Origin: Mugil cephalus | Lineage: Eukaryota; Chordata; Actinopteri; Mugiliformes; Mugilidae | Direction: 5' to 3' | Length of the DNA stretch: 64,000 nt | Assembly (NCBI RefSeq): GCF_022458985.1 | Contig: NC_061783.1 | Span: forward strand, 7,346,413-7,410,412 | Shown here: positions 8,085-53,600 of the stretch, piece by piece | How positions within the stretch are numbered: the first letter of the stretch is position 1 | How the letters are laid out: every line of letters begins with the position of its first letter | The notes under the pieces: generated by a model | What the model was told of the DNA's origin: nothing | The model's database searches: none | Seen by the model: only the letters and a program-made list of their open reading frames with translations | Translations under genes and position numbers: made by a program

Positions 8085-8445
8085 TACACCCATCAGACAT
8101 AACATTATGACCACCTTCCTAATATTGTGTAGGTCTCCCTTGTGCCTCCAAATCAGTTGTGACTCATCAGAGAATGGACATGGGACTTCTGAGAGAGGGG
8201 CCTTAGGTCCTATGACCAGTGTCGTCTACATCGAGGGGAGGGGCCTCTGTGGATCAGGTACAGTGCAACCCAGGAGTGTCATTGTTAATGTGCGGAGTGT
8301 CTGGTCTGGTCTAGGTGGGTGGTACATGTTTGAGTAACATCCACATGAATGACAGGCCCAAATGTTTTCCAGCAGAACACTGAATTGTCACAAGATGATG
8401 AGTGTTATTTTCTTCTGTATGTGTCACTTACTCTGTGATTTCACT
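8085..8445. mobile_element. internally deleted Tc1/mariner relic
   Basis: After a TA at 8085 comes the terminal sequence CAGACATAACATTATGACCA, typical of a widespread teleost Tc1-like family. It is followed by that element's GGTCTCCCTTGTGCCTCC and later its CATCCACATGAATG and CCAGCAGAAC segments. Most of the transposase region is missing. The copy is not coding-competent. Confidence 0.7.
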
Positions 8446-10856: not shown

Positions 10857-13800
10857 TCAGAAAGCTCCGATCTCAGTCCCCCATCCCTGGGCCGCCTTCG
10901 CCGATCCGCTCAAGCCCCTTCGCTGGACTGTGGGAGACCCCAGAGGTGCAAAGGGCCTGAAAGACACTTGCAGAGGGGCAGAAGATGATGAAGTAGAAGA
11001 GGAGGAGGAGGAGGAGGAGGAGGTAGAAGGGGAGGAAGAGGAATGGGAGGGGAGAGGTAGAGGCGAGGCCCTGGTGGTGCTGTGAGGGGACGGCTGGGTC
11101 GGTCTGGAGGGGGCCAGGGCCGGGGACGCTGTCAGGGAAGGCACCCTGTGGACGGCGGCCAAAGCCGTCGGCGCGAGGAGCGGCGGCGCGCCCTGCTGGC
11201 ACCCGGCCAGAGGTGCGAGGCGGAGGGAGGCATGCGACGGGTAGCTCCCCAGCAGAGCCAGGTCCCTTCGCCCGCTGGGGAAAGGAGGAGAAGAGGAGGC
11301 CGGCGAGGCGGGGGAGATCTGAGGGAAGGACGCCCACGCCCAAGGAGGGAAGGGGAGGGTGGAGGCCGGGGGCGTCTGCAGGAGAAGGGGGTCGAGCTCG
11401 CTCGCACAGTGGGAGAGGTGGGAGACGAGGCGAGCTCCGATCGGGTCCGGGGACTCGCCCTCAAGTGAGCTGAGGTATCGGACCACCTCTCCAACACACT
11501 CCCTGAACCCCAGGGTCCTGTAGTCGACTGCCAGAGCCCTCGCATCAAAGTATCCTGAGAGAGAACAGCAGAGTTTAGTCATGCACTGAGTAAAGTTAAC
11601 GGAATGCAATCGGTCATAAAAAAAAATAGAAGGACATTAAATCACTATTTGTCAGATTCTTTTTAACTCCTTTTTCCTTGTCACCTTTTCCTCCCATGGC
11701 ATGCAGCAGTTTGAGATGGTCCACTGTCATCTGCAGAATCTCTGCTTTCTCCAACTTGGAAGAACCCTTTAAGCAAAATTCACATTTTATTCAGAAGCAT
11801 GATTCTCATTCTTAATTTTTTTTTTGTATTCAAATATCCACAGGGATCCTAATTAACTCTCTCCACACATAAGCCGGTACCTGTTTCTCAAAAGCGCTTG
11901 GCACCAGCCTCCGGAGCTCTGACAAGCTGTGGTTGATCCGGTCCCTGCGCCTCTTCTCTATGATCTACAAAACAAGAGGAGCAGAGGGACGTTCAGCGCC
12001 AACCAAAGAGACAGGACTAAACTGATTAAGATCCAAAGCCGTAATCCACTCACTCCTCGTCTCTTCTTTCGGGCCAGGATCTGTGAGGCGCTGCCTGGAG
12101 ACATGGACCCCGTGACTGGACTGCACCATGGAGATAGAGTAACAGAAACAGGGGAGAGATGGGGAGGGTTGGCACAGGGAGAAGACATGGTAACTTTGAT
12201 TCGCCTGCATATTGTTATTATTACCCTTCTTAATATGACACAGAGGCAGGATGGCACATCAGCCCCCTTCAATCTAATTTGTTGTTTGGGCACAGAACAG
12301 CAGAGGGGTGCCCGGGAGAGGGGGGGGAAGATGAGATTGTTTTTGGTTTAATGCGTTTCTGGACATTAGGCCCAGTGAAATGACATGCTGTTCTCCTTTC
12401 CATGTGAGCGAAAGCACTTTTAGAAAGATGATTATATAGCCCCGGGGCTACGCTTTCGCTCGCATAGGGCTCCAACATGCTGCATAGGGCCCGAGCGGCT
12501 CCCAGTGCAGTCACTCAATGTGGATTGTGTTTGTTTGTGAGCTCTCATCTTACAGGCCTGAAAGAGGCTGACAGCTTGAAGTTCCCTTCAAACTGCCCCA
12601 CAAGAGAATTATTGCGTTTCTATTAGATTTTAACATGAGGGCTGCCAGTTTAGCTGTGTGTTTTTGTTTAGGTTTATGTTTGATGGTGCTGACTTGAAAA
12701 GGCACCACTGTCTTCTGTTTGCATGTCACATGGCAATTTCATTTATCAAAACCGTCTTTAGTGTTGCTGGCTCGCTGAGTGTCTGTGATGTAACCGGCGC
12801 TGGCGTGGACGTGTTTTTGTAAACTGTAGATGCACAAATACACTTTAATGAATGCTCCCTTTAATCCAGATGTCCGTGTAATGCAAGCCAAAGAATCTGA
12901 CTAATTCACCTAAAAAGCAAAAAAAAAAAAAAAAAACACAACAAAAACGGAATAACGACTTTTAAACAGAGTCAGGGTAATTTTACTGTTTATCAGCCGT
13001 TTTCCACAACACTGAGTCAAGTTACTTGTAATGGGCTGCAGTTAAATAACATTTGCGATGAAAGGCTAAAGGTTTTCTCTCTTTTTGCATATTGGAGTCA
13101 GTTCGTGTTTTGCACTACGCCGTTGCTTTCCAAGCTTGTTTTATTTTTTTTTTTTTTTTTTTTTTGCACTGGTCAACATGCATGTTGATATTCAACAAAA
13201 ACACAAACCCCTAACACTATTCTTTTAACCCTAACCCTTAACATAATAAACCTGAAACGATAAATCAGCCTATAAAATATCTATATCTCTGACCACGAGT
13301 TAAGTGGCTCAAATAAAGCAAAAAAAAAAAAAAAAAGTTTTTAAATCCTGCAATCAGCCTGTGTGCGTTAAATGTCCTTGGATAAATTCCGCTGAATATG
13401 TTTGATGAGGTGTGTGCTTTTTTCCTGCTTTAGTGTTAATTTGACGGACCGATTTTTCACTTTTTGCACATTGATGTGACATCAGATAAAAAAAAACAAA
13501 AAACGATATCGCTACTTTTAAAAGAAAAAATAACAAGTACAAAACTTTCTATAAAAGATCTGAAAGGTGTTTTTCTTATTTATTAAATGTCTTTCTTGTT
13601 ACGGGTTAATTTCTCTTATTTATTAAATAAGGAAATCCTGCTTGTGACTCCAGCCCGTCGCCTTGCTTCAGACCTCAGAGGCCTAATGAACGTTTCACTG
13701 CTTTATACTTACTGGGATGCATGCACAAACTAGTAAAAAGCAAAAGTGAACCCACTATGTGTTTAGACACAGACTAAATTGCGGCCTGAAACTCAGTAAA

Positions 13801-28125: not shown

Positions 28126-31100
28126 ATGGAGGTGCCTTGCTACCTGCCCAAACTGCTCTTTGAGCTCAATGAGCAGCGCAAGCGGGACTTCTTCTGTGAC
28201 TGCAGCATCCTCGTCGAGGGCCGCGTCTTCAAGGCCCATCGTAACGTGTTGTTTGCCGGCAGTGGCTATTTTAGGGCCCTTCTGGTACACTACCTACAGG
28301 TGAGCATACGAGTGCTTCTGTGTTTCTGACAATCAAGCAGAGCACAAAAGGTAAATGGCTTTGATTGTCATGGAACTGAACTCGCAAGTTGAATGTACTC
28401 AAACATCTCTTTTCAGGACAACGGACAGCGCTACAGCACGGCGTCACTGGACATCGTAACAGCTGACGCCTTCTCCGTCATTCTGGACTTCCTCTACTCC
28501 GGCCGCTTGGCCCTCAACAGGAGCAACGTCATTGAGGTGATGTCGGCGGCCAGCTACCTGCAGATGACTGATCTGGTGAGCTTTTGCAAAGGGTACATCA
28601 GCTCGTCCTTGGAAATATGCAGCAAGGACAAGGAGAGGAACACGGAGAAGGACAACCAGGCGCAAAAGGGAGGGACGGGTCCTGCCGATAGTGGCACGCC
28701 TGCTGCAACGACCTCCAGTGGTGCTGGGGTTACAGAGTCTCATTCACAGGTCGCCGAGGCGGATAGAGGGTCAGCTTTAGGCCCGGAGTCCGAGACCTCG
28801 GCTAGAACCCCTTTGTCCATTGCCGCCACCACCCCTCCAGCCTCAGGCAGGGACAGTGGTTACCCTTCCAGGGAGGAGTTTGCACCTGGGAGTGAAAGTC
28901 AGAAGGTACATGTGGACCAGACTAATCTCTCATCTTCCTCATCCTCTGCTTTGACTCTAGAGCTAGTGAACCCTAAGATAGAGTACGACCCCGACGAGGA
29001 GCTCATGGAGTCTCCTGACACCAAAGACCTTTCATCGTATCCTGGACCTTCCCTGCACAATGACCATCATAGCAGGCTACTCCCCACAAGTCCCTCTAAT
29101 TCCAACGAACGCTCTCCCTTGGGATACAACTCCTCCTTTAATACCAGGCAGCTGATGGAGATGCTGGCCAGAGGTGAAGGCCCCAGTCCTCTGGGGGACA
29201 GAGTGGGGCAACGCTTTACACAGGGACTAGGTAGTAACACGGGAGGAAGCAGAATGGACGAGGGGTTAGGGTTTGTGGGCTCATCTATCATGGAGATCCA
29301 GTCTGATTGGCTTGGAGAGGACACAGGTAATTGGCGGGAGTTAACTAACCCCGTACAAATGGGTCACGGTGACATTCATTTCCCTGCTGACTTAGAAAAT
29401 GCCTATATTACGCATCTACTTTCCATTCAGTGAAATTCGCAGTAAAATGAGGTAGACGCTGACTACTGGCCTCTTTCTCCCCCTGCAGGCGATGGCTTGG
29501 TAGTGCCAGTGAAACTCCACAAGTGCCCGTTCTGTCCTTACACGGCCAAGCAGAAGGGGATCATGAAGAGACACATACGTTGCCACACAGGCGAGAGGCC
29601 CTTCCCCTGTCCCATGTGCGGCAAGAGGTTCACACGACAGGAGCACCTTCGTAGCCACGCCCTAAGTGTAAGAGGAACCTAGTTTTGATTGTATTATGTT
29701 GTTTAATTTATTGGAAATTAATGACACATTTTTGCCTCTATATCCTCTCTATTATTTAACCATCCAATGTTTAATGGTATACATATATGATATATATATA
29801 TATATATTGCTTCATATTTAATGACTTGATGTGTTATTGTTCTTGATGATAATTTTCATACCAAATGTTATAGATAACAAGAATAACAATACAAATTCTG
29901 CTGTGCTATTTTAAAGCTCAGTATTTTTTCAGTGGTTGGCAGAATCATTTTTGATGAGAGACAGGCGGTTAAACAGACATATTTTAGTATAAAAGTCTGT
30001 ATTTTGAAAAACAAATGTCAAATAACACAGATAAATTGAGTAAATAACGTTATTATTATTATACGATATTTATACCGTATTTTTTTCCCCTTTAGAAAAA
30101 CAATTTCAGAGGTTGACCACCCATTTTTGTCACTCTGAACCATGTATTCTAATTCTAACCATCCAGAATTAAACCCCTCTCATGACTGTTGTGATGTTCA
30201 GTTTATGTTTCAGTGAGCGTCAGAGCACTGGTAATCCAGGTGGATGCTCATTGTGGAGGATGTAGTTTGTGGTGCTGTTAAACTGAGTTGAATGAAATGC
30301 TAAACGTGTTTCTGTTATTTAGCCAAGCCGGCAGACAACAGTTGGGCTGTCAAAAGAGTAGAAAGACATAAAGACATACAATACAGTTCAACAGCACTAC
30401 AAACCACAGCCAGTTATTTTAAACAGAGTTGATAACATAACCTTTAAAAAGCTAAGAATTAGTGCAAGACTGCTACATTTGAATGCAGTCATTTTCTTTT
30501 GTGCACCTAGTGAACTTGCAACTGAGTGTAAATTGTTATTGTTATTTTTCTATTCTGTGAATGAATTCCTTCATCTCCTTTTTATGTCCGATTGTTCTTT
30601 TGATGTTTATAATGGAAAACCATATCGATGCCCAGTATTACACGAGGCAGAGTTTTTCCAAATATCCTCAAACATGTCTGGAATGGATTTTAACGCTGCG
30701 GTGCTGGATGGCATTGTTGCAGATTACAGATTGATTGCGACATGTTGACTTGCTTACAAAAAACTGTACAGGCCGTAATACATCAGGAAGACAAAATGGC
30801 TGGCTCAAGACCACTTAAGTCAGTAATTGCCAGCGGTTGGCTGTAAACAGTAATTAGCATATCCTTCTTTAATCGAATGCCGTTTCAGTTCTTTTTCCCC
30901 GTTGTGTTTTTTGTGCAGAAAATAAGTCGGTAGCGAAACTCCTGTCTCCTACGTTGTTGTTCTTTAATATTCTAAATGTGGGTGCTGCCAAACATTTACG
31001 TGTTCACTCTGCTGACGGCCCACAGGTCCACAGACAGTGCTGGCCAGTGTCGTGTAAGAGCTGCAGGCGAACGTTCACTGGGCCGAGCGTGTCGCCGGGG

Positions 31101-31340: not shown

Positions 31341-32298
31341 GTTTATATTTAAATTTCTAATTTATAGTCCCACACCATGGAATACCTTGGACTTTTTAGA
31401 TCATCGTGTCTCTCTTGGTAAACTTCCAGAAATGGAAAGAAATGGTAAAGAAAGCCACTGGGTTGTAACAAAGTGAAAGGGACTTTACAACAGCAGGTGG
31501 CTGAAATGATGTTTCAGGGAGCAGTCACAGTTTGCAGGCTCAAACACTCGCAGTGGCAGCCACAGTTGGTCGAGACTTGATTAAAAGATGTTACATGCAG
31601 TATTGTCATTTTTGCAGCTACTCAGAACAAAAACGTCACTTTCAAGCTAAGTTTTGAATATGAGCATGTGTTCCTAATTGTATGAAAGGTATTATATTTT
31701 TTGTATTTATTGTGGCGTATGCCAATAATGCAATGCTGATTATAATTTCGCAAGTTTTCTGTTACTGCATAAAAACGGGCTCAACCAGATTTTACCATTA
31801 AAGACATCGTTTTAAATTATTATTAAATATAAAATGGTATTCCATTAAATCATTCATGAGATGTTTTCAAAGCACTGTATAAATGCGCAGTTTCCTTTCT
31901 CAAATTACTGTTTCAGTAGAACTTGCTTTAGTATTTCTGTCTCTGTATTCTTTTTGTCTCTTCTTCCAGACTCAGAGCATGATGTTGACGTCAGGGCTCA
32001 GTGTGGGTCAGACCACGCGTTGCGTGTTATATTTATGGTGGGAAAATATTCCTGTAATTTGTGTCTGGATTTGTTGTCCAGTTGCAGGATATATTTTGAG
32101 ATATCCGATGCCTTGAAGGTGGTATTGTTTGATGAGTAAGAATCGGTGCCTACAAGTATTGCGCAGGACTGTTTTGATGGCGTCTTTGACGCACACAAAC
32201 CCAGTACGTCCTGGTTGTGATTTTCCATCACTCATGTTAGCACTACAGAAAATGACCTGGAACTGGTAGTTGAAAAGAGTGAGAATCATTGTCATTGC

Positions 32299-32304
32299 AA
32301 TAAA
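32299..32304 (+). terminator. candidate poly(A) signal of zbtb8b
   Basis: AATAAA lies about 960 bases after the stop codon, with T-rich sequence just downstream. Confidence 0.4.
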
Positions 32305-32408
32305 TGTCCTTTTTTACAATCTGAAATGATGGTTATTCACCGGTTATCTTAATTTTGCTGATTTTCCTCATGTCCAAATCATCGTCCGTTTGATCCAAAT
32401 GCGGCCTC

Positions 32409-32424
32409 TGGCGCCCTCTAGTGG
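32409..32424 (-). promoter_or_regulatory. CTCF-type motif
   Basis: The minus strand reads CCACTAGAGGGCGCCA, a full match to the CTCF core consensus (CCACNAGRKGGCR). It lies just past the zbtb8b 3' end and before the helix-turn-helix gene pair. Confidence 0.5.
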
Positions 32425-33398
32425 TAGAATTTGAGGTTATGCAGAAAAGCTTTGGATACACATTTTTGCTTGTGGTCCCAGGATCCTGTTGAATATTTCT
32501 GCCCAGGTATCATTTCCTGCTGTGAGTATGTTAGTAGCTTACCATAACAATATCAGTGTTTTTTTGTTTTGTTTTTTTACTGACTACATCAAGTTTGCTT
32601 AGCCACACCATCACCTGCAGTGTGTTCCATGTATATGATTGCTTTCAGCTGAAAGGTGGTACTCCGAGAATAATAATGGGAATACAATAATGTTATATTT
32701 ATTACTCTGCATAAAATAGTGTCACAAGTAAAACAAAGCAATTTTCATTTACTTGCAAACAAGTAGATACACTAGATACAAATCCTTTGGTCCAAATCAG
32801 AAGAGTTATCAAGGCTCATCTTCCCATATATTTCACCAACTGAATTATTCAATTATCATTTTTAACTCCATATGAAAAAAACTAAACTTACTAATTACAG
32901 TTTGTGTGGTTTGTGTGTTACGGTCCTGCACAAAACCATCACACAGTTCAGTGGCCACATCTCTTACAATGGTTCACAGCCATGACCGGGGGTTAAAATG
33001 TAGGAATGCATTCCTTTTTATTAGTGTACCAAATGCTTTGGGAAACGAGTGGAAACGGAAAATTACAACTGTCACGGTGGGGAATTAAATGATGAAATGC
33101 CACTTGATTGTTTAAATGAACTGTTCTCCGTCATGTGTTGAAGTTCCATTAAATAATAATAATGAAAAAAAAAAAAAAAAAAAAAGATGCGTGCGGGGCG
33201 GGAACACATCCGGGCATTTGGACTGTACTTGATCTGAACTGTGCTCGGGCAGAGACTGGTGACGTCTCCGATGAAGTCCACCAGAACAGACCAGAACGAA
33301 CGCGAGCAGAACAGCCGGCTTGTTTTTATTTTATTGTGGGGGGTGGCAGACACGAGACGCTGCGGCGTGTCCACGAGCCTTTCTCCGGGGAGGAAAAC

Positions 33399-33938
33399 AT
33401 GGGGAAGTCGCGAGATTTGAGCGAGTTCGAGCGGGGCATGATAGTGGGAGCCCGCAGCGCCGGGTGCAGCATCTCGCAGACCGTGAACATGTTAGGATTT
33501 TCAAAGACGGCGGTGTCTCGAGTTTTCAGGGAATGGTGCGAGAAACAGAAAACGTCCAGTCGACGGGAGCTGAGCGGGAGAAAGCGCCTCGTCGACGAGG
33601 CCGGCGAGAAGATGCTGGAGAGGATAATGGAGGCGAACAACCAGGCTACGGATGTGCAGATCCAGGCCATGTACAACAGCAGCGGACCGGAGAAGCCCAT
33701 CTCGCTCAGAACCACCCAGCGGACCCTCAAGAGGCTGGGCTACAGCCGCAAGATGCAGCGGCAGGACGTGCTGGTCGCGGCTGGGCTGCAGGCTTTAGCC
33801 GTGTACTCATGTCCACAGCAGCTGGAGACTCCCACTGACTCTGCGTGCGGGAAACAAACTGACCTCAAGAACGAGTCTCCCACGGATACCACTAGCAGTA
33901 ACGAGAATGACAAAAAGGATGTAGAAGCAGTAACCTAA
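33399..33938 (+). CDS. intronless helix-turn-helix protein from a Tc1 transposase, copy A (179 aa)
   Basis: The ATG at 33399 opens MGKSRDLSEFERGMIVGARS, the usual start of a teleost Tc1-type transposase. Residues ~8-55 form the first helix-turn-helix (SISQTVNMLGFSKTAVSRVF). GRKRLVDEAGE (~72-82) is the GRPR-like linker. Residues ~84-125 form the second helix-turn-helix, ending RTLKRLGYSR. The catalytic DDE domain that should follow (>200 residues) is absent. Instead there is a ~50-residue polar tail (QDVLVAAGLQALAV, then a Ser/Thr/Asp/Asn/Lys-rich end). The frame is intact, CpG-rich and intronless. A paralogue lies 3.5 kb downstream at 36887. The frame is open upstream to 33162 through an encoded A run, but MGKS is the family start. 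AATAAA is at 34286. It is either a domesticated DNA-binding gene or a truncated element; intact duplicates favour domestication. Confidence 0.65.
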   Translation: MGKSRDLSEFERGMIVGARSAGCSISQTVNMLGFSKTAVSRVFREWCEKQKTSSRRELSGRKRLVDEAGEKMLERIMEANNQATDVQIQAMYNSSGPEKPISLRTTQRTLKRLGYSRKMQRQDVLVAAGLQALAVYSCPQQLETPTDSACGKQTDLKNESPTDTTSSNENDKKDVEAVT

Positions 33939-35937
33939 TTTTTTTTTTCAACATGGCGGCTCCACTCCCAAGATGGCGAACTGTGCAGAAGTTCTTTTTT
34001 TTATATATATTTTTTATTTAAGCACTACATTGTCTTGCAAAAGAAAAAAAAAACGTAGGGAGCACCTCAGCCAGGAAAATGACTACGAAAACGGAAGAAG
34101 ACAGAGTGACAGCACAGACAACAATACAAAAGAAAATACGTTTAAACAAGCAACTAAAAAAAAAGTGACAGCACTCCATGTTCAAATAAAGCTTATAAGA
34201 GCAACGAACGGGACATTAAAGGAGTGGACTGGCTTTTCTTTCCCACACTTTTAGCTATGAAAAATGAACAGCAAAATTGATTGTGAATAAATACATTGAA
34301 GGTGGGGGTGAGACCTACCACTTACACCTGCCTACATATGTTGTGCTGAAATCCAGTTTCTCAATGAGTATGAGAAACACACCGTTTGGGGAAGAAAAAA
34401 ATAAAGTGGTTTATAGTTTCAACTTTTACAGAAGAAAAGGTGCATGCATTCACTTCATAACCAAATGTTTTGTGGAAGACATCATTAGTGGTATATTTAA
34501 ATATTATTTTATCTCCAGGTCAACAGAATATTTAAGAAACAAAGGAAAAGATTTCATTGTCAAGGTGTTTACTGCGGCACCAGTGTAGTATGTCATTTTG
34601 GTTCAAAAACAAGCTCACGTTTCTGTTACAGTATTGATCTAAAGACTTGTGTTATGTGGTGGTGATATTCCAAGGAAAAGGCATTTTACCATAAATATTT
34701 TACCAAAAAGCAATGCTTAATTGGTGACGTGAAAAAGCTCTAGTTGTTAAACTGTTAGGAATATGGTGGCATATACTCTCACTTACCAAAAAAAAAAGAA
34801 AGAAAAGAAAAAGACTTGTGAAACTGAATGCATTGCGGTCTAAATAATGGAATCAAGTTTCTATACCACAACACGGTTTAATAGGACTACAAACTTCAAC
34901 TACGAAAATGAAAACACGCAGTTTAGTAGATTAGAGATTTAGTGCGGAGAGATATTATATACACAATTTACATTGTCGCGGCACGTTCAATGTGTGGCTC
35001 GGTAGTAGCTCCGGACGTGCACCGGGTCATGCACAACTGTGATTGGTCCGAAACTAATTCTCTTGTTCACGTGTCTCAGCGGCCGGAGAAGCACATAAAG
35101 TTCGCCTTCGTTCGGGTTTATACACGCCATCTATTCGGATGTCTAATCTATTTTATGTGCTGCAGTGATTTTAGTGAAACGAACTGTTAATCCACATTTA
35201 TTATCTTCTTCTATCAATTCCAAATGAACCGCTAGGTGCCACTCGCCATTGTATGAAATGCGAGTGCAGCTCACATCTGGACAGTCGCCGCCTAGTGTTT
35301 CGGTTGTGTAATTACAGAACAATACTTGCAGACCAGTGTACTGGTATGCTCTCCACGGCTAAGTCAATGTGCTGCAACCACCTGATTGAAATTCAGTTAC
35401 TCTAAGCATAGGTCCTGTGTAAACCATTTTTTTTTCTCCATGCTGCTTGTAATCTGGGAGTAAAACTTAACTAGTAATTAAAATATTGTTTTGTTCTGAG
35501 TAAAGCAAGGTATTTTCTCCTTTACTCCCTTTTCACTGATATAATGGCTGCATTATCAATAATGCATACCATGGGCAGCCAGACATTGCAGCATTTTAGG
35601 GCAATTAATGTCAGACCTGAAGATTTAGAGACAATACTAATTCCATCAGTTGCTATTGAAACTATATACTCTTATCGATTCATACCCCTATGTTCTTTAT
35701 CAGCCAACCACATGATGGTCATCAATAAGAGCATGTCTGTCCTGCAGATAAGCTTTGGGTCCCCGTTTCCGCTTCTAGCTTTTGCCAGAGACCGGCGATT
35801 TTTTTTATTGGTCCTCTTTGCATAAGTTCTCCCACAAGATGATTTTCATATATATTTTTTTTTTATCTTTTTTTTTTGAAACTTCATTTATGTTTGGGCT
35901 GTTCACTGGTGTGCTGTCTTACTGTGCGCATGTCTTG
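33939..35937. other. spacer between the two helix-turn-helix genes
   Basis: Just after copy A are two YY1-like motifs (ACATGGCGGC and AAGATGGCG, 33950-33977). A small CpG-rich patch at 34980-35130 has a CCAAT-type motif (minus strand, 35041-35047) and an E-box CACGTG (35068-35073). The rest is AT-rich. I see no further gene. Confidence 0.4.
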
Positions 35938-36182
35938 AGTTCACTTCTGGGATGGTTCTTGATTTCCTTGTCGTTCCATCTGGACAAGGAGGATCCACAG
36001 AGGTCCCTCCCCTCAAACCATAGCACCCAAAGACCCCCACTAACGACATCCTGTTGCCAGACACCACAGGACACCCTCAGAAGGTCCATGTCCATTCTCT
36101 GATGAGATATAACTTTTGGAGGCACAAGGGAGACCTACACAGGATTAGGAAGGTGGTCATAATGTTATGCCTGATCATTGTA
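35938..36182 (-). mobile_element. Tc1/mariner relic
   Basis: The right end GGTGGTCATAATGTTATG is the terminal sequence of the same Tc1-like family as at 8085. Read on the minus strand, the order matches the 8085 copy (GGTCTCCCTTGTGCCTCC, CTCATCAGAGAATGGACATG). The transposase is not intact. Confidence 0.7.
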
Positions 36183-36285
36183 TGTGCCTTATTTACGAAA
36201 CATTCAGTTGGTTGGATAAATTCCCTATTGTGCGATAACCTATATTTTTACTGAGATGTCCAATAAGTCATATTTACTTTGTTAT

Positions 36286-36540
36286 CACATCTCCTCTCCT
36301 ACCGCTTATCCTCACTAGCGTCGTGGGAGTTGCTGGAGCCTATCCCAGCCGTCATCACGCAAGAGGCAGAGTTTTCTTGTCATATATTGTGCATATTTCT
36401 TTATATATTTATTGGACTCTGGACTCACCATGTGCAATAATTTCCCCCAATCGGAACTGTTACACTTTAAGTAGGAACTGCTGTAACAAAGAGTACTTTC
36501 GCCCTGAGGTCTATAAAGTAATTGTGATTCTGATTCCTTT
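36286..36540 (+). repeat. LINE-like or satellite-like teleost repeat tail
   Basis: It contains CTACCGCTTATCCTCACTAG, then GGAGCCTATCCCAGCCGTCA, a signature common in fish dispersed repeats. The tail runs into CTATAAAGTAATTGTGATTC, typical of the 3' ends of fish LINE families. A shorter related piece is at 62105-62155. Confidence 0.5.
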
Positions 36541-36713
36541 TGTATTCAGCACCACGTGTGCGCAACAGTATCAAGTACACATGAAATAATTTGATACATG
36601 TGGGATTCATTCATTCTGTGTCAATTATTCAAATACTTTGAATGACTTGACTATAATATAGCATTTTTTTTTTTTTTTTTTTTTTTATAAAAGAAAATCT
36701 TCTGGAGGGACCT

Positions 36714-36787
36714 AAACCAACGGAGGAGGGCGCCAATACGCGCGTTTAATGAACTGATTTAATGAGACAAAAACCATAGAAGAAGAA
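36714..36787 (+). repeat. GAAGAAG-ending promoter-proximal repeat before copy B
   Basis: GGAGGGCGCCAATACGCGC, then GAGACAAAAACCATAGAAGAAGAACGG-type sequence, resembles the elements before zbtb8b and fuca1. It ends 100 bases before the copy B start codon. Confidence 0.4.
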
Positions 36788-36886
36788 CGGCTACTGTCCT
36801 TTTTCATCAGTTACCGATGGTTTTGTTTGGGTCAGTGTTTCAGCGTTCAGGAGCTCCTCTCTCTGTGGCATCCTGAACCGGGACTC

Positions 36887-37315
36887 ATGGGGAAGTCGCA
36901 AGATTTAAGCGAGTTTGAGCGGGGCATGATAGTGGGAGCCCGCAGCTCCGGCCTCAGCGTGTCACAGGCGGCGAGCCGGCTGGGTTTGTCGAGGACGGCG
37001 GTGTCTCGAGTTTTCAAGGAATGGTGCGACAAGGAGAAAACGTCCAGTCAGCGGGAGCTGTGTGGAAGAAAGCGCCTCGTCGACGAGGCCGGCGAGCGGA
37101 CGCTGGAGAGGATAATGGAGGCGAACAACAAGGCCACGACTTCGCAGATCCAGGCCATGTACAACAGCAGCGGACCGGAGAAGCCTATCTCGCTCAGGAC
37201 CACCCGGAGGACCCTGAAGAGGCTGGGCTACAGCCGGGAGTTACAGGAGATACACGAGACACAGGGGACTCAGGATGTGCTGGACGCAGCTGGACTGGAG
37301 GCTTTAGCTGTGTAG
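36887..37315 (+). CDS. intronless helix-turn-helix protein from a Tc1 transposase, copy B (142 aa)
   Basis: The ATG at 36887 opens MGKSQDLSEFERGMIVGARS. It has the same two helix-turn-helix units and GRKRLVDEAGE linker as copy A and again no DDE catalytic domain. Residues around the first recognition helix differ most (SVSQAASRLGLSRTAVSRVF). The second unit, from LERIMEANN to RTLKRLGYSR, is nearly unchanged. The tail ends DVLDAAGLEALAV and stops at TAG. Copy A has TAC at that place and reads on. Homology continues about 100 bases past the stop, to AATAAA at 37365 (AACAAA in copy A) and an A run. Conservation of both open frames, and of the non-transposase tail, argues that this is a small gene family rather than two random truncations. 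Confidence 0.65.
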   Translation: MGKSQDLSEFERGMIVGARSSGLSVSQAASRLGLSRTAVSRVFKEWCDKEKTSSQRELCGRKRLVDEAGERTLERIMEANNKATTSQIQAMYNSSGPEKPISLRTTRRTLKRLGYSRELQEIHETQGTQDVLDAAGLEALAV

Positions 37316-37364
37316 TCTTCACGTCCACAGCAGCTGGACAGTCCCACTGACCCTTTGTGCGAGA

Positions 37365-37370
37365 AATAAA
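37365..37370 (+). terminator. candidate poly(A) signal of copy B
   Basis: AATAAA lies 50 bases after the stop codon. The aligned position in copy A reads AACAAA. Confidence 0.5.
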
Positions 37371-37429
37371 CTGACATTGAGACCGAGTGTCCCATTGAGA
37401 CAGTAACTTGAATGACAAAAAAAAAAAAA

Positions 37430-38164
37430 ATGAAAGAAGAAGAAGCAGAAACGACTTAGTTTCTTTTCCAATATGGCGTCAATTTAATCCGAAGGAATTT
37501 CTCAAATGGCATTAATAGACTTAATTTAACACTTTGTTTCACTTTTATTTGTATGTTAAATTGTCCAGACGTTGTCTAGAAGGGAGTCTGTTGTTCCTTT
37601 GAAACGCCGTTTGATTTATCTGTTATTCAAAGGAAACGTCTGCCAGTGTAGTTGCCTCCTAAACAATTAAAGGAAGCCTGTGTCCAGATGTCGGATACTT
37701 TTCTCAGTCTTGCCTTCAATATGGCGATTGTTGTGTGAAGAGCTAGGATATGGAGAATACTTTAATAAATCTTACTGGACTAAATGTGAACAAGAAAGAC
37801 GGCATACACAAGTGTGGAGGACTGGAGTTCAAGAGGTCGCCGTTAAGACTTGAATTAACTTAACTTCATTAGTCTTTTCTGATTGGATAAATGTGTAGAA
37901 TTAAATCTGTGATTCACATTCAGGAGAAGTAATTTCCCTAACGTGCTACATGCCAAAGTCCTTTGAAAACCACCAAAGAACGCTAAAAAGAGGAAAGAGT
38001 CAGGCTCAGGTTAAAATGACAACATATTTCTTGCAAAACAACCGTTAAATTAGGCAAATTGAAGTTTGAGCACTGTGTATCAAACTGGACATGAGTGTTT
38101 TGTTTTTTTGTTTTTTTCTAAACTGTTTTTGTGTGCACATATGTCAGACTGCATCCTGATGGCT
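37430..38164. other. spacer, no gene seen
   Basis: Two YY1-like AATATGGCG motifs lie at about 37471 and 37719. No coding structure is visible. Confidence 0.4.
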
Positions 38165-38357
38165 GTTGGCATCAAGGAGTGAAATTAGTATGGGGTGGGA
38201 GTGTCTGGTCTTGGTGGGTGGTTAATGTCTAAGTAGCATCCATGCGAATGCCAGGTCCAAAAGTTTCCCAGCAGAACGTTAAATTGTCACAAGATGCTCA
38301 ATGATATTTACTTCTACTGTTGGCAGTGTTATTGTTATGGCTAATCAGTGCATGATG
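38165..38357 (+). mobile_element. Tc1/mariner relic
   Basis: GGAGTGTCTGGTC..., then CCAGCAGAACGTTAAATTG and TCACAAGATG align with 8260-8410. The right end GTGTTATTGTTATGGCTAAT is a diverged terminal repeat. It has no coding capacity. Confidence 0.6.
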
Positions 38358-38371
38358 CAGGGTTGTGTCCA

Positions 38372-38455
38372 TAAATCTGAAATGTGGATGTTGTGACTAA
38401 CCCTGTCCTGCAGAGGGCAGTAATATGCCTGGCAGCGTTTACTGTGCCTCGAGTT
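38372..38455 (+). repeat. teleost CTGCAGAGGGCAGTAAT repeat, copy 1
   Basis: The sequence from AATCTGAAATGTGGATGTTG to CTGCAGAGGGCAGTAATATG is matched by 39152-39210 upstream of fuca1. The core resembles a CTCF site. Confidence 0.6.
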
Positions 38456-38601
38456 AACTTCTGGGATGGTTCTTGATTGTCGTTGATCCAGTCAATACCA
38501 TCTAATCACATGCTTATTGAAGAATGCCAAGAGCTGTGGTCTTTGCTAACTCCAGACATGGTTAGGCCATGATAAGGAAAAAGAAATATATAATATATAT
38601 G

Positions 38602-38632
<31 letters not shown>

Positions 38633-38722
38633 TTTTAATAAAAAGAAAAAAAGTTGTGATTGCTGCAATATTTGACTCTTCACGCCACCATTTCGACATG
38701 CCCCCTAAGGCATCCTTTAAAG

Positions 38723-39011
38723 CAGGGGTCTTGAACCTTTTTCAGACCGAGGACCCCCAAACTGATGGAGCGATTAAGTGGGGACCACCTACCTATTATA
38801 TGTGCTCTGTATTAAATTTGGCCTAGTGCTATTTAGAAATACACATTATTATTTTGACTATCATTTTGCATTCAGTAATAAGCCATTCCTTATCCCTCCA
38901 CTAAAATATGTATACATTCATGTTAATGTGTATTTAAGGAAATTTAAATTTGTGGGGGAAAATTACTTTGCGGACCCTCCAGGGGTCACGGACCCCTGTT
39001 GAAGACCTATG
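38723..39011. mobile_element. hAT-like miniature element, copy 3 (289 bp)
   Basis: The left end is CAGGGGTCTTGAACC and the right end TGTTGAAGACCTATG. The flanks CTTTAAAG (38715-38722) and CTTTAAAT (39012-39019) form a 7/8 target duplication, nearly the same target as copy 1. The interior is collinear with copy 1. Confidence 0.8.
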
Positions 39012-39151
39012 CTTTAAATCTTAGCGACTGGCTGAGAACCAGTAGTTTAAAGTGACTTACAGACAATACAATACTTCTGCTTCTGTGTGAATCTTGCAAG
39101 GTTATTAACTTTTCCTTTCAGTGGTTTCAGTATTGTGGCTGATGAGTGAGT

Positions 39152-39250
39152 GAAATCTGAAACGCGGACGTTGTAACTAACGCTATCCTGCAGAGGGCAG
39201 TAATGCGCCTATTGGCGTCAAACCGGCCAAAAATTGTAGAAGAAGTCACG
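39152..39250 (+). repeat. CTGCAGAGGGCAGTAATGCG repeat before fuca1
   Basis: This is a second copy of the 38372 repeat, here continuing through TATTGGCGTCAAACCGGCC to GTAGAAGAAG. It ends about 230 bases before the fuca1 start codon and probably overlaps its promoter. Confidence 0.6.
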
Positions 39251-39483
39251 GTGAAGTCACGCGATATAGACGGAACAATAAATGAAAACAGTCATATGAT
39301 TAGAAACACAATTCACCTGAAGGGACGCAACTAAACATTAAGTCTCATAAATACCTGTCAGGTGTAATTTCACTTTGTTGCAGCCTGTTAACAGTTAACC
39401 GTGGACTTGTTAGGAGGCTGCAGACTGCGCCAAGTGGTCTGCACACATTCAGGAGTTGGCAGATAGGCTGATCTACTGTAACG

Positions 39484-42400
39484 ATGCTCGTCCTTTTCCT
39501 CCTGGCCGTCGCGTTCGTTTCCCAAACGGAGGCTCGCTACACCGCGGACTGGACCAGCCTGGACGCCAGGCCGCTGCCCTCATGGTACGACGAAGCCAAG
39601 GTGGGCATTTTCATCCACTGGGGGGTGTTTTCCGTCCCGGGCTTTGGGAGCGAGTGGTTCTGGTGGCACTGGCAGGGGCAGCAGCCTCCGGACAAGAAGT
39701 GCGTGGACTACATGGCCAAGAACTACCCACCCAAGTTCAGCTATCCGGATTTCGCCCCTCGTTTTCACGCTCAGTTCTTCAACCCGGAGGACTGGGCGGA
39801 CATTTTTAAAGCCTCTGGAGCAAAGTGAGTTATATTTCTCTTTAGCTTTAAGAACGTATTTTAACGCTGGTTGACGTACAGTTTATATGCTGCTTTACTC
39901 GTATTGAATTGGTTTCACTTTCAGATATGTCGTCCTCACTGCAAAACACCACGAAGGATTTACTAACTGGCACTCTCCAAACTCCTGGAACTGGAATTCT
40001 GTGGATACTGGTCCTCATAGAGACCTAGTGGGAGACCTGGGAGACGCAGTGCGCAACAGGTGGGTCCTGAATTATAGACTACTGTTTTTTTTCTCTCCAC
40101 CAATTGAGTGCGTGTACATTATACATGCTCAATGAAAATAAAGACATTCCATTCTATTCTATTTCCTGTCAGACAAGTCAGAATCTCATATCCTCCTGCA
40201 GCTTTTTGTCTCTCCAGTTCATTTTTAAAGCCACACTTCTCATTACAACCCATTGGGAAGTGGTAACTTACTGTTCCCTTTTTGTAGAACTTCAAATTTA
40301 TTCTTCCAGCTTGAAAATAACAAACTAGAAGCCACAGGGGTTATTGTAAGTAAGCTCGTTGTCACAAATTCATTGATTTTTTACCACCAATTACTGATCC
40401 TTGCAGCTTAAGGGAGCACAGTAATATTGTTGTTGTGTTCTAGATCGCACATATATCTGGTTTAAGAGTCGACTAACTTACTGTAGTGTAACCCTGGTCA
40501 ATGACTACATTCAATGTTTTTAAGCAACGCTGACTTGAATTCTGTAAATACCTGAATGCATGCTGATTGTTGAAGGGAAAAACATTCATCAAATGACCTG
40601 TCAGCTGATGCATGATTGAATTAGTGCCAAGAGACTGAAGATTAAAATGACACATCTTTACACAGTTTCACTAGCATATTTCCTTGTGCTGCTGAAGTTT
40701 GTTCTCGGACGAGCTTCATATGTCTCTGACTTCATCTGCTGCAGCTTTGTGTGTCACCAGTTTGACTGAGGAGGGCATGGTGTCCAATTGGGTGATGCTT
40801 CCTATCTTACATGCACAGAATTGAAATGTGTTCCCAAATTTAACACTAATCCACTGCCTCTAGATTGGGGAATACAGTGATCCAATGGCACTGATAGCAC
40901 TGATACAGCCCTAATCCAAACTGGCAAATTGGATTGGTGAGGGCTGCTAACTCTTTCAGTGACACACCAGCTCTGTCCTCATGTGACCTGGTTTTCTGTT
41001 ACATATGTTTTTCTCATTTAGGTCGTTGCACTATGGACTCTACAACTCCCTTTATGAGTGGTTTCACCCTCTCTATCTGAATGACAAGAAGAATGAATTC
41101 AAATCCCAGGATTTTGTGATGCATAAGCTGCTCCCAGAGCTTTATAATATGGTTGTGAGGTATGTGCTGCTTAAATCTACTTATTTGCTTTTTGCTTTGT
41201 GCATTCGTCTCTCTGAGCTCCACAGCATGATAGCAATACGTCTGAACCATGTCGTTCCTTTTGCCTCGCAGGTACCGACCTGAGGTGATCTGGTCTGATG
41301 GGGACTGGGAAGCACCTGACACCTACTGGAACTCAACCGAGTTTCTGGCCTGGCTCTACAATGACAGCCCTGTTAAAGTAAATGTCCTTATGACAAGGAA
41401 ACGACAAGACATATACTACTGTTCTAAACAAGACTCAAAACTGTTTCTACACAGTTGCATGTACTTACCACATCTCCCCCTGTTTTAGGATACGGTTGTG
41501 ACCAATGACCGATGGGGACAGGGCTGTGCCTGCAAACACGGTGGCTACTACAACTGCGAAGACAAGTACACTCCAGGCCAGCTGCCCAAGCACAAGTGGG
41601 AGAAATGCACATCTGTGGACACTTTTTCCTGGGGCTACCGTCGGAACATGAAGATTAATGAACTTATGAACATGTCCTCCATCATTGGGGTGAGCACGCT
41701 GAGATTATTTTCTACTTTTTGTTTATAGCTGCCACACATATATATATATTACATTTCTTTCACTCTGATGGAGACAGTTCTTTAAATGTAGCCTTTTGAC
41801 TAAAAAAAACATCCAGAAAGTGATTATTTTACATTTTCTTGTCCCACTTCCTCTTTCAGATCAATCTAGGAAGTGTACTTTTTGTCAGTTTGTTGATTCG
41901 TATGATCTCCCACGTTACTCCTTGATTGTGTCAGACCAATCTTTAAGTTGGGTTTATGTTGGGCCAGTTAGATTTTACTAATCTGGTCTGTATGATAAAT
42001 GTAATGTTAATATTTCCTGTTTCATCTTGGGCCTGCTGTTGCTTTGTGACAGGATCTGGTCCGCACTGTGGCTCTTGGGGGTAATTATCTTCTGAACGTG
42101 GGTCCTACACCCGATGGAATGATCCCTGCTGTTTTTGAGGAGAGGCTCAGGGGTGTTGGAGCCTGGCTAGGCATCAACGGGGAGGCCATCTATGCCTCCA
42201 AACCCTGGAGGGTGCAGACAGAAAACACAACTGTGCCAGTCTGGTAAGAAGGAGGGTGCAAAATAAGTATTTGCCATGTTCATGTTTGTTGATTTTGCAA
42301 TTTATTATACTGTTAATGCCGTTATCATCTCCATTGTTCTAGGTATACATCTAAAGGGAGCACTGTCTATGCCATCATAATAGACAAACCCCTGAAGCCT

Positions 42401-50697: not shown

Positions 50698-53600
50698 TCA
50701 GAGTCGAGTCTGGGCTTCGGGGATGTAGATCTCGATGCTGTCGGCGCTCTCTGTGGCCGAGTTCTGCCTGAAGGAGGCAGTACGCTTGGTCTGCAGCAGC
50801 CGCCTCCTCGCCTCTGTCCTCTGGCGGTCCCCGAGGTCCAGGGACTTCTCCCTGATGGGCAGGGTGTGCCCCCCAACGCGGGGCACGATCAGGCCGCCCG
50901 ACCCACCTCCTGCACCCATGTCCCCAACGCTATCGGCACGGAGGCTGCCACTCACCCCACCTGCTGGCTTCTTTGGTAACGGGGGAGGAAGCTTCTTGTC
51001 CTCCTGGTTTCGCCAACGGCGAGCCGCAGACGCGGGGCGAGACCCAGCGGTGGATGGTTCGTGTTTGGTGATGGGGCGGGGGGGTGGAAATAATGGGGTT
51101 TGTATGGTCGTGTAAAAGAGATTCCATGCACACGCAGGAGGAAAGAGAATGAGGAAACCAAAAGACAAAAAGGAAGTTCATGTGAGGAAGAACAATGGGC
51201 CGAAACAATAAACCAAAAAAAAAAAAAAAAAGCAGAAACAATGACAGCATGCATTTGCATTATGTAAACAATTGAAATGGGAGAAGAGAAGGCAAACACA
51301 GATAAACAAAGGAAAAGAAAAGGAAAAGAGAGACAGTTGTTAGTTTGTTATCAAGAACAATGTAGTGGTTGCGTAGGCTAACTTTATCGAAAAAAAATAT
51401 AACAGGCAAGTTTATTCTTTTCCTTGATCCCCTGCGATAAATTTCCAAAAAAAAAAAAAAAAATCTAGCACCTTAAGACTTGACAGTTTTGTGGGAAGCT
51501 CAGCTCAGTTCCTCTTGCTGCTCTGTATTTTCACAGCCTGCAAAGACTTTGAGGGCACAACCATCTGCGCTACTCGTCTGCACACTGCCATCTTAGCTCT
51601 GGGGGAGCGCTGAAGGGAAACCATGGTTGTTCGGACCCCCAGGCCTCTCACCTTCTTTTCAGGAGGGAGCCTCCAACCAGAGTCCTTGATCCTCTGGAGG
51701 TCCTGAAACTTGACCCTGACGTCCTCAATGTTGAGCTGGAGCAGCTCCCAGAAGGCCGCCAGGTCCTGAGACGTGGGCTGGGGGTAGGCGGACGGGTCCT
51801 GCGTGGGAGACACGAACACGCGACGGGTGAGAGATTCAAGGATTTGCGGAGGAGAGATTAATTACGTAGAGCCACTTTCTCCAGAAGAGTGTTTGCAGCC
51901 GGGCAAACCCTGTAGCCTGTGGCGGCGGTGGATCCCGGGGGAAACCGCGCACCGTGCTTAATGCGCGCTGTCATGATTTCGCATGCAGTCGCAAATACTC
52001 ACCACACTTTGTTGGCAGAGGCGGAAGAACTGCTGGACTTTCTGAGACATGAGCATCTGGGCGCTGCCAACTGCGTTTCGAATCAGCTCGAGAACTAGGA
52101 GGGAAAAGCGGCACATGAGAGGCGTCTAATGTCAAGCAGACATTCTCAGTCTTCGTCTCGGGTCCGCCGTACGTACTCACCCTCCTCTGGAAGTTCGTTC
52201 TCCTCTGCCTCTCGTTCCATGTTCTGGCACCAGCTCTCCATCCTCTCCACCTCCGTCTGAAGCAGGCGCAGGAAGAACTCCCCGTCTCGCATGCAGGGCG
52301 AAGCTCGGCCTGAGTCGGGCAGGCTCCGGGGCCCCTCCAGCGAGGGGGTCCCGGCCCAGGCTCGCTCGGAGGTAATGGGCAGGGGAGAGTGAGAACGTGG
52401 AGGCAAGTGTGGGTGCTGGTGGGGCCGTGGGTCTGCTTGGCAAGCTTCACTCGTGTAGCCGCTCTGTATAAAGTCCTAGGTTTGCATAAGACAAAACTGT
52501 TTGGGCTCATGGAATTTGGCCGGCCCATAATAGTACTGATCTTGCGAACATATGTTCACCGCAAGCCTTCTGTTCACTGCAACCGTTCTCTTAGTAAATG
52601 AAAGGGGTGGGCCTTTTACTTCCACGTTTGCTTGCAGGAATACAATTAATGTGCAAATTAAACCAAGTGTTAAACCAAGAACTGGCCTGGTCATGCACTG
52701 TGCATCTGTGTAGCATAGCAGTAGTCGTGCTACCAGCAGATGAGAGCTGAAGGTGAAATATGTCTTATTTTGCTAGCTCTCTGCCCACCTACTTTAACTC
52801 CACTCACACTCCACCTATTTGCACATTTTTTAATTAGCAAGACTGTGCTGCCAGAATGCCCATTTGGACGGTTTTGAATTTCAATTTGGGAGTTAAGATA
52901 GAATGAGCTAAATTTGTGGTGGGATAATTTTTATTTATTTATTTATTTAGTTTTTTCCAAATCACTATTTGCCAGTAGTTGTCCAAATAACATTATTTAA
53001 TGTTGAAACAAATCCAAAGTGCATTCCCAACATGCAGGAGTGCACCGATGAGTGCACTGAATGTGCACTACTTGTAACATTAGTGAAAAAAGCTACCAAC
53101 AGTGGACTACATGACATACTCAAGTGTTTTTTTTTTTGTTTTTGTTGTTGTTTTGATGATATAGACATTCTGAGATGTCATAGTACTAAACATTTGGGCT
53201 GAAAACCATCAACTGTATCTGTTTTTGACCACTAGCAGCGTTACTGAACGTTACGTTATCAAGCAGGTTATCGTCTTGTTTGGATCTCATAGAGGAGCAC
53301 GAGGCCAAAGGTTTCTCATCGTTAAACTGCTTCAACACTTGACAGCTGTAACCAATAAGCAATAATTGTGCTTTTAAAGGCCGGTGAGAAGCGACCGAAA
53401 GCTAGTAAACTCAGCCAACTCCTGATGGGTCACCACTGCAACAAGCGAGCTGAGCGGCTAGCATGTAGCGTTGAAGGTAAATGAGTAATGATTGTACCTT
53501 GATTATACCTTGCAGCAGTTTTGATTTACAAAGAAGAAATTATTCAATTCGGAATTGCATTGGACACAATAAAACGTCTCTTTGAATCTCGTTCTCTGCC

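Follow-up and report, generated by a model that had tools for sequence, protein, structure and literature searches.

In a 64-kb stretch of contig NC_061783.1 of the fish Mugil cephalus (hereafter the window), two adjacent single-frame genes, A and B, encode proteins that correspond to the DNA-binding half of a Tc1 transposase. We consider it probable that this half was captured as a host regulator without catalysis, duplicated in tandem and kept by purifying selection. A domesticated, duplicated DNA-binding protein, which had also been proposed in an earlier note on this DNA, is the best-supported reading because only two copies were found, the ratio of replacement to silent divergence (dN/dS) is 0.34 against neutral values in related transposon relics, and no transposon ends were detected. 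Domestication is thus well supported within this one genome, the M. cephalus assembly itself (634.8 Mb, 24 contigs), from which all of the evidence comes.

Gene A (P0001) is a single open frame on the plus strand at 33399..33938 (179 amino acids plus stop), and gene B (P0002) is another on the same strand at 36887..37315 (142 amino acids plus stop). Both frames are open, as previously noted, and their products are 81% identical across 118 residues. Tc1 relics elsewhere in the genome align with either query from the shared start codon to approximately residue 116-128, with 45-55% identity and E-values down to 1e-36, and the DNA-binding half of an intact Tc1 protein of 340 codons (L002) matches B with 25% identity over 114 residues (E 8e-06). 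By these alignments A and B contain the two-unit (PAI/RED-type) DNA-binding domain. The PAI-like helix-turn-helix (HTH) occupies residues 1-51 (33399..33551 in A, 36887..37039 in B) and the RED-like second unit residues 65-118 (33591..33752 and 37079..37240, respectively). Between them, the translation and alignment of both proteins place the expected GRKR linker at residues 60-63 (33576..33587 and 37064..37075), in the position of the GRRR motif described for Sleeping Beauty (PMC7827188). The full bipartite domain claimed earlier is therefore present by alignment to the relics and to the intact protein, but it is weak by Pfam models alone: B passes the cut-off for HTH_23 (E 1.6e-08) and A passes no cut-off (HTH_23 E 0.0079), whereas the second Tc1 HTH, PF01498, which exceeds its cut-off in one relic (residues 71-142, E 2.8e-13), covers only residues 71-116 of B at a sub-threshold E of 0.03.

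The copy search, in which 150 candidates were scored of 2799 for the A query and 3036 for the B query, returned A and B only, followed by 148 relic matches per query at 41-56% identity. Two tandem copies were found in place of a dispersed multi-copy element, and the search did not turn up numerous copies of this truncated unit with broken frames and Tc1 ends, which the earlier note had regarded as speaking against domestication. No relatives of A or B were found in viral contigs or prokaryote genomes. For further comparison we used a non-random sample of 38 of the 148 relics, comprised of the 18 best-scoring (L011-L028) and 20 stop-free ones (L031-L050); their stop codons were treated as X in the tree and omitted from codon counts. 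The mean identity of these relics is 51% to A (best 55%) and 52% to B (best 57%), and 81% to one another. In the FastTree phylogeny A and B form one clade with support 1.0, a stem of 0.67 and tips of 0.13 and 0.09, which lies beside or inside the relic family, so that the parent would be either this Tc1 group or a lost sister of it.

Both features required for mobility, the catalytic half and the terminal repeats, are lost in A and B. As the Pfam DDE model detected nothing in the open 333-residue frame of one relic (L049), the catalytic half was searched for with the intact Tc1 protein instead. The catalytic half of L002 matches 30 of the 38 relics and nothing in the window at E<=1, in agreement with a search using 45 Tc1 loci, which confirms the reported absence of a DDE domain. 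A short terminal-repeat pair was detected at 13 of the 38 relic loci, with the left arm lying in most cases 90-160 nt upstream of the start codon and the right arm about 0.7-1.1 kb downstream of it. In five flank stretches of A and B, matches to this repeat did not exceed those in shuffled sequences (20, 30, 72, 188 and 66 of 200 shuffles were as good). A 33-mer at 33019, approximately 350 nt before A, was considered as a terminal repeat and rejected; it matches at 21 of 33 positions, as the third-best ungapped hit in the window, and 35 of 100 shuffled windows reach 21. Of the flanking DNA that was searched, the 271 nt 3' of A was located at A and B only and the 211 nt upstream of B at B only, whereas the 224 nt upstream of A had one partial match of 47 nt elsewhere.

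Comparison of the coding sequences indicates that the intact frames are under purifying selection within this genome. The 135 codons shared by A and B contain 25 silent and 32 replacement differences (dS 0.326, dN 0.111, dN/dS 0.34; Fisher P 0.0003); for 118 codons the counts are 20.5 silent and 26.5 replacement differences, close to the roughly fifteen and two dozen estimated by hand before. In contrast, the 703 pairs formed by the 38 relics have a median dN/dS of 1.01, with none of them at or below 0.341. Silent sites have reached saturation in 73 of the 76 comparisons of A or B with the relics, while the mean dN is 0.39 for A and 0.37 for B. Survival of the frames by chance was also simulated. 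Under neutral evolution from B, the number of runs out of 20000 in which both frames stayed open was 352 in the absence of indels, 6 with 0.05 indels per substitution and 0 with 0.1; starting from A, the corresponding numbers were 67, 0 and 0 of 5000. The observed/expected (o/e) CpG ratio is 0.93 in A and 0.91 in B, versus a mean of 0.34 (maximum 0.49) in the 38 relics and 0.38-0.39 in six younger Tc1 copies. CpG-rich stretches cover each gene together with its 5' side (33181..33920, o/e 0.97, for A; 36781..37300, o/e 0.88, for B), which may point to activity in the germ line.

The similarity between the two genes starts at the base before each ATG (33398 and 36886) and continues past the stop codon of B, giving shared plus-strand blocks at 33398..33958 and 36886..37478. 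On the A side the block is composed of the main match and a last 43-nt stretch, which is weak (E 0.002) but collinear, its core being equalled by 48 of 300 shuffles; the similarity probably ends at the CAANATGGCG motif. Nothing alignable was found in the upstream DNA (370 of 500 shuffles were as good), and no splice-acceptor AG directly precedes either ATG. The two frames do not both end cleanly, as had been thought, since A continues for 44 residues (33804..33935) beyond the point where B stops. In the 28 codons past the B stop, differences between the copies number 6 at first, 6 at second and 5 at third codon positions, and none of them is silent. This even distribution gives the DNA a non-coding look and disfavours a coding nature of the extension, which probably came about when A lost its stop codon and the frame ran on into what had been 3' untranslated DNA. 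The preceding tail comprises residues 119-135 in A (33753..33803) and 119-142 in B (37241..37312), with a 7-residue insertion in B relative to A, and was found at these two copies only. It is indeed common to A and B, but its description as a non-transposase sequence is qualified by a weak resemblance to the linker of the transposase, which was equalled in 304 of 20000 shuffles for the A tail and in 679 of 20000 for that of B.

Taken as a sequence of events, the host would have captured the DNA-binding half of a Tc1 transposase gene, keeping its start, two HTH units and GRKR linker in a frame that stops ahead of the catalytic domain. A later tandem duplication of the captured gene, in the interval between a BTB gene and an alpha-L-fucosidase gene, would have produced A and B, and both copies appear to have been retained by purifying selection, as far as this genome alone can tell. 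Each copy most likely encodes a small nuclear protein whose paired-like domain binds DNA without cutting it, and A and B may act as regulators at chromosomal sites.

Several points weigh against this scenario. The support is confined to a single genome. The A/B ratio is based on 57 differences, and the 703 relic pairs used as the control are non-independent and mostly closer to each other than A is to B (median dS 0.094); only 8 of them have dS of 0.2-0.45, with a median ratio of 0.60. The constraint that is seen when A or B is compared with the relics belongs partly to the history of the transposon itself. The same rule that identified the CpG-rich stretches of A and B finds 22 of at least 300 nt in the window, so that such islands are not rare here and it is the contrast with the relics that counts. 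The DNA search used for the flanks omits common words, so that unmatched flanks are no proof of uniqueness. At the protein level, the first unit of A is weak as an HTH and the second unit of B is sub-threshold in Pfam. A profile of seven rows (A, B, four relics and one intact Tc1) matches the Sleeping Beauty PAI and RED structures (2m8e, E 4.5e-07; 5unk, E 1.5e-05), and this match is lost without the intact Tc1 row. A profile of A and B reaches E 0.09 and B alone E 0.15 among solved structures, in both cases with PAI entries only, and A alone has no match at E 0.001. The direct resemblance to the Sleeping Beauty structures is therefore weak, and judging from these profiles the link holds only through an intermediate family. 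The AlphaFold model of B, with A as the sole companion sequence, is fair for the first HTH and poor elsewhere (mean pLDDT 61); Foldseek with this model gave nothing at E<=0.001, the 50 matches listed being mostly generic bacterial regulators.

Some of the same observations would be expected if A and B were left over from an older Tc1 subfamily that has otherwise disappeared, with a first half that stayed open by luck and has no host function. Stop-free stretches are common in the relics, being found in 36 of the 148 matches by an eye count, A has lost its stop so that its frame enters DNA of non-coding look, and its first HTH is weak in Pfam. We regard such chance survival as unlikely in view of the dN/dS of 0.34, which is not approached by any relic pair, the simulations of frame survival, the lack of both terminal repeats and catalytic half, and the restriction to two adjacent copies. 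Another explanation is based on the fact that shortened transposases can be dominant-negative: the DNA-binding half could compete for the terminal repeats of related Tc1 elements and block their transposition. A large related family does exist in the genome (2799 candidates at first look), and the base-facing positions of helix 3 (36, 37, 40, 41, 44 and 45) carry the relic majority residue in 9 of 12 cases versus 131 of 230 over residues 1-116, although these numbers are small. However, the full set of 14 Sleeping Beauty DNA-binding positions agrees with the relic majority in 13 of 28 cases only, RED helix 1 in 5 of 22 and the turn in 2 of 12, and relic copies were not found near the genes. 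The sampled family also looks dead, with neutral relic pairs, which lowers the likelihood of a direct transposon repressor, and we hold this role to be quite unlikely.

The earlier note had further proposed that the proteins act on Tc1-like relics lying between and beside the genes. No such relics were located there by blastn with 45 Tc1 loci of two families, other Tc1 families not having been searched, so that the proposed action on neighbouring copies is not supported. All of the matches obtained were to DNA of one locus (L034), over 1.3 kb downstream of the start codon of its transposase; they were rejected as Tc1 relics and taken as another repeat. The pieces in question, at 8147-8416, 36065-36107 and 38190-38315, are perhaps what had been perceived as relics. 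The sole clear Tc1 trace in the window is a lone 33-mer at 2042-2074 that resembles the terminal repeat of the relic family at 26 of 33 positions, a score reached by 0 of 100 shuffled windows.

Divergence between A and B is concentrated in one patch, codons 21-36 (33459..33506 in A, 36947..36994 in B), where A and B differ at 14 of the 16 codons, a concentration that none of 20000 permutations reached. Identity in the patch is 60%, compared with 88-95% in four other stretches. Replacement differences are elevated in it (11 of 35.8 sites vs 15.5 of 237 elsewhere), as are silent ones (8 of 12.2 sites vs 12.5 of 69). The second unit is less variable, but falls short of the near invariance attributed to it, since codons 73-118 contain 7 replacement differences and 6 silent ones. 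For Sleeping Beauty, the first-unit helices have been assigned to residues 12-22, 29-33 and 39-55 and DNA binding to positions 28, 29, 31, 33-36, 38-43 and 47 (PMC7827188), with helix 3 as the primary recognition helix (PMC11754664); the helices predicted for B in the AlphaFold model are 9-20, 25-32 and 36-49. Among these binding positions, 28, 29, 31, 34 and 36 differ between A and B, whereas 33, 35, 38-43 and 47 are the same in both. The changes at 36 and 44 are K/R swaps only. By these positions the patch corresponds to helix 2 and the adjacent turns, just touching the start of helix 3. The changes are thus clustered as had been noticed, although in helix 2 and its turns and not in the core of the first recognition helix, which is spared.

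This location bears on the view, put forward in the earlier note, that A and B are two transcription factors whose specificity has been shifted by positive selection around the first recognition helix. The patch does hold 11 of the 26.5 replacement differences, and 5 of the 14 first-unit positions that bind DNA in Sleeping Beauty (PMC7827188) are changed. We nevertheless find the shift improbable, and positive selection on the recognition helix disfavoured, as silent changes climb in the same patch and the positions of the helix 3 core remain identical.

The preferred reading of the patch is a mosaic: A and B have probably exchanged sequence by gene conversion across the rest of the genes, which would leave a single patch of older divergence around helix 2 in the PAI-like unit. 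In a possible but doubtful alternative, there was no conversion and the patch is a mutational hot spot or was imported from another Tc1 copy. In its favour, the clustering of silent differences alone is modest, though suggestive (1064 of 20000 permutations; 695 of 20000 for third positions), and the longest identical runs between A and B are not unusual (4273 and 1568 of 20000). Against it stand the fall in A-B identity and the distance of both patches from the 38 relics (53% identity for A and 51% for B, nearly as far as A is from B), which also disfavours import of the patch from a relic. A saturated age of the entire duplicate is disfavoured too, as the DNA past the B stop is still approximately 80% alike (17 of 84 sites differ). 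Under the mosaic reading, it is possible that selection keeps the patch distinct between the copies. A stronger version, in which A and B evolve in concert, conversion homogenizing most of their length and selection blocking it in the 48-nt helix-2 patch to maintain two DNA-docking surfaces, is in our judgement a long shot. If true, it would show, in a young and natural example, how a family of paired-domain transcription factors arises from a Tc1 transposase.

Transcription factor families such as Pax are supposed to have arisen from transposase DNA-binding halves that stand alone, and the origin of Pax is traced to the DNA-binding domain of a Tc1-like transposase. A and B share the paired-like two-unit layout with the Pax paired domain, but the Pax model is absent among the best 25 of 32 families for B and among all four for A (E<=1). 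With Sleeping Beauty (PAI, GRRR and RED) they have in common an alignment of about 115 residues from the start codon, made through the Tc1 relics and the intact Tc1 protein, and the same basic linker; they differ from it and from other Tc1 elements in lacking a catalytic domain and terminal repeats, in being present as two copies under purifying selection, and in their weak direct structural match. Like SETMAR, CENPB, TIGD, JRK, POGK and POGZ, they are low-copy host genes from IS630-Tc1-mariner transposases. PMC7386202 gives SETMAR and CENPB as the only known Tc1/mariner derivatives, and the domesticated pogo genes surveyed there keep DDE, as whole transposases or fusions, whereas A and B consist of the Tc1-type DNA-binding half alone. 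Reuse of a transposase DNA-binding domain is also seen in KRABINER and in the F-box A2 genes of Caenorhabditis, the latter having captured a Tc1/mariner HTH, and further host-transposase fusions are cited in the same account (PMC12062965). Those proteins carry a fused host domain; none was found by Pfam in A or B, for which the single frames and not distant exons were searched. The list of six transposon-derived factor families in PMC10027918 names none as Tc1 paired-like. Among the listed matches in the open-licence literature we found neither a report of the A/B pair nor any vertebrate gene that retains nothing of Tc1 but its DNA-binding half. Fish databases may well contain genes of this type as uncharacterised proteins. 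The presence of a tandem pair and a related transposon family in the same genome would make the step from transposase to regulator directly testable, including the sites that are still bound.

The gene pair is flanked by a BTB exon on the left (28393-29433) and an alpha-L-fucosidase exon on the right (39472-39828). The names zbtb8b and fuca1 for these neighbours are those of the earlier note, the domains alone having been checked. Frames with Hairy_orange (10857-11636) and GKAP (50698-51177) domains are located on the minus strand elsewhere in the window. Rfam searches of 32000-39500 gave nothing at the gathering score. A 58-nt direct repeat, 86% identical between its copies, occurs at 38373-38430 and 39153-39210. 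Finally, all four CAANATGGCG motifs of the window, which we take to be YY1-like, lie directly 3' of A and B on the same strand (33949-33978, 37469-37478, 37717-37726). Two CAANATGGCG motifs follow A (33949-33958 and 33969-33978), and B is followed by a CAATATGGCG motif at the end of the shared block (37469..37478), supported by the A/B match, and by a second CAATATGGCG motif at 37717..37726. The four occurrences compare with 0.45 expected in the window and were matched in 0 of 100 shuffles, in a post hoc count; in other loci, the motif was observed once in 157 kb.

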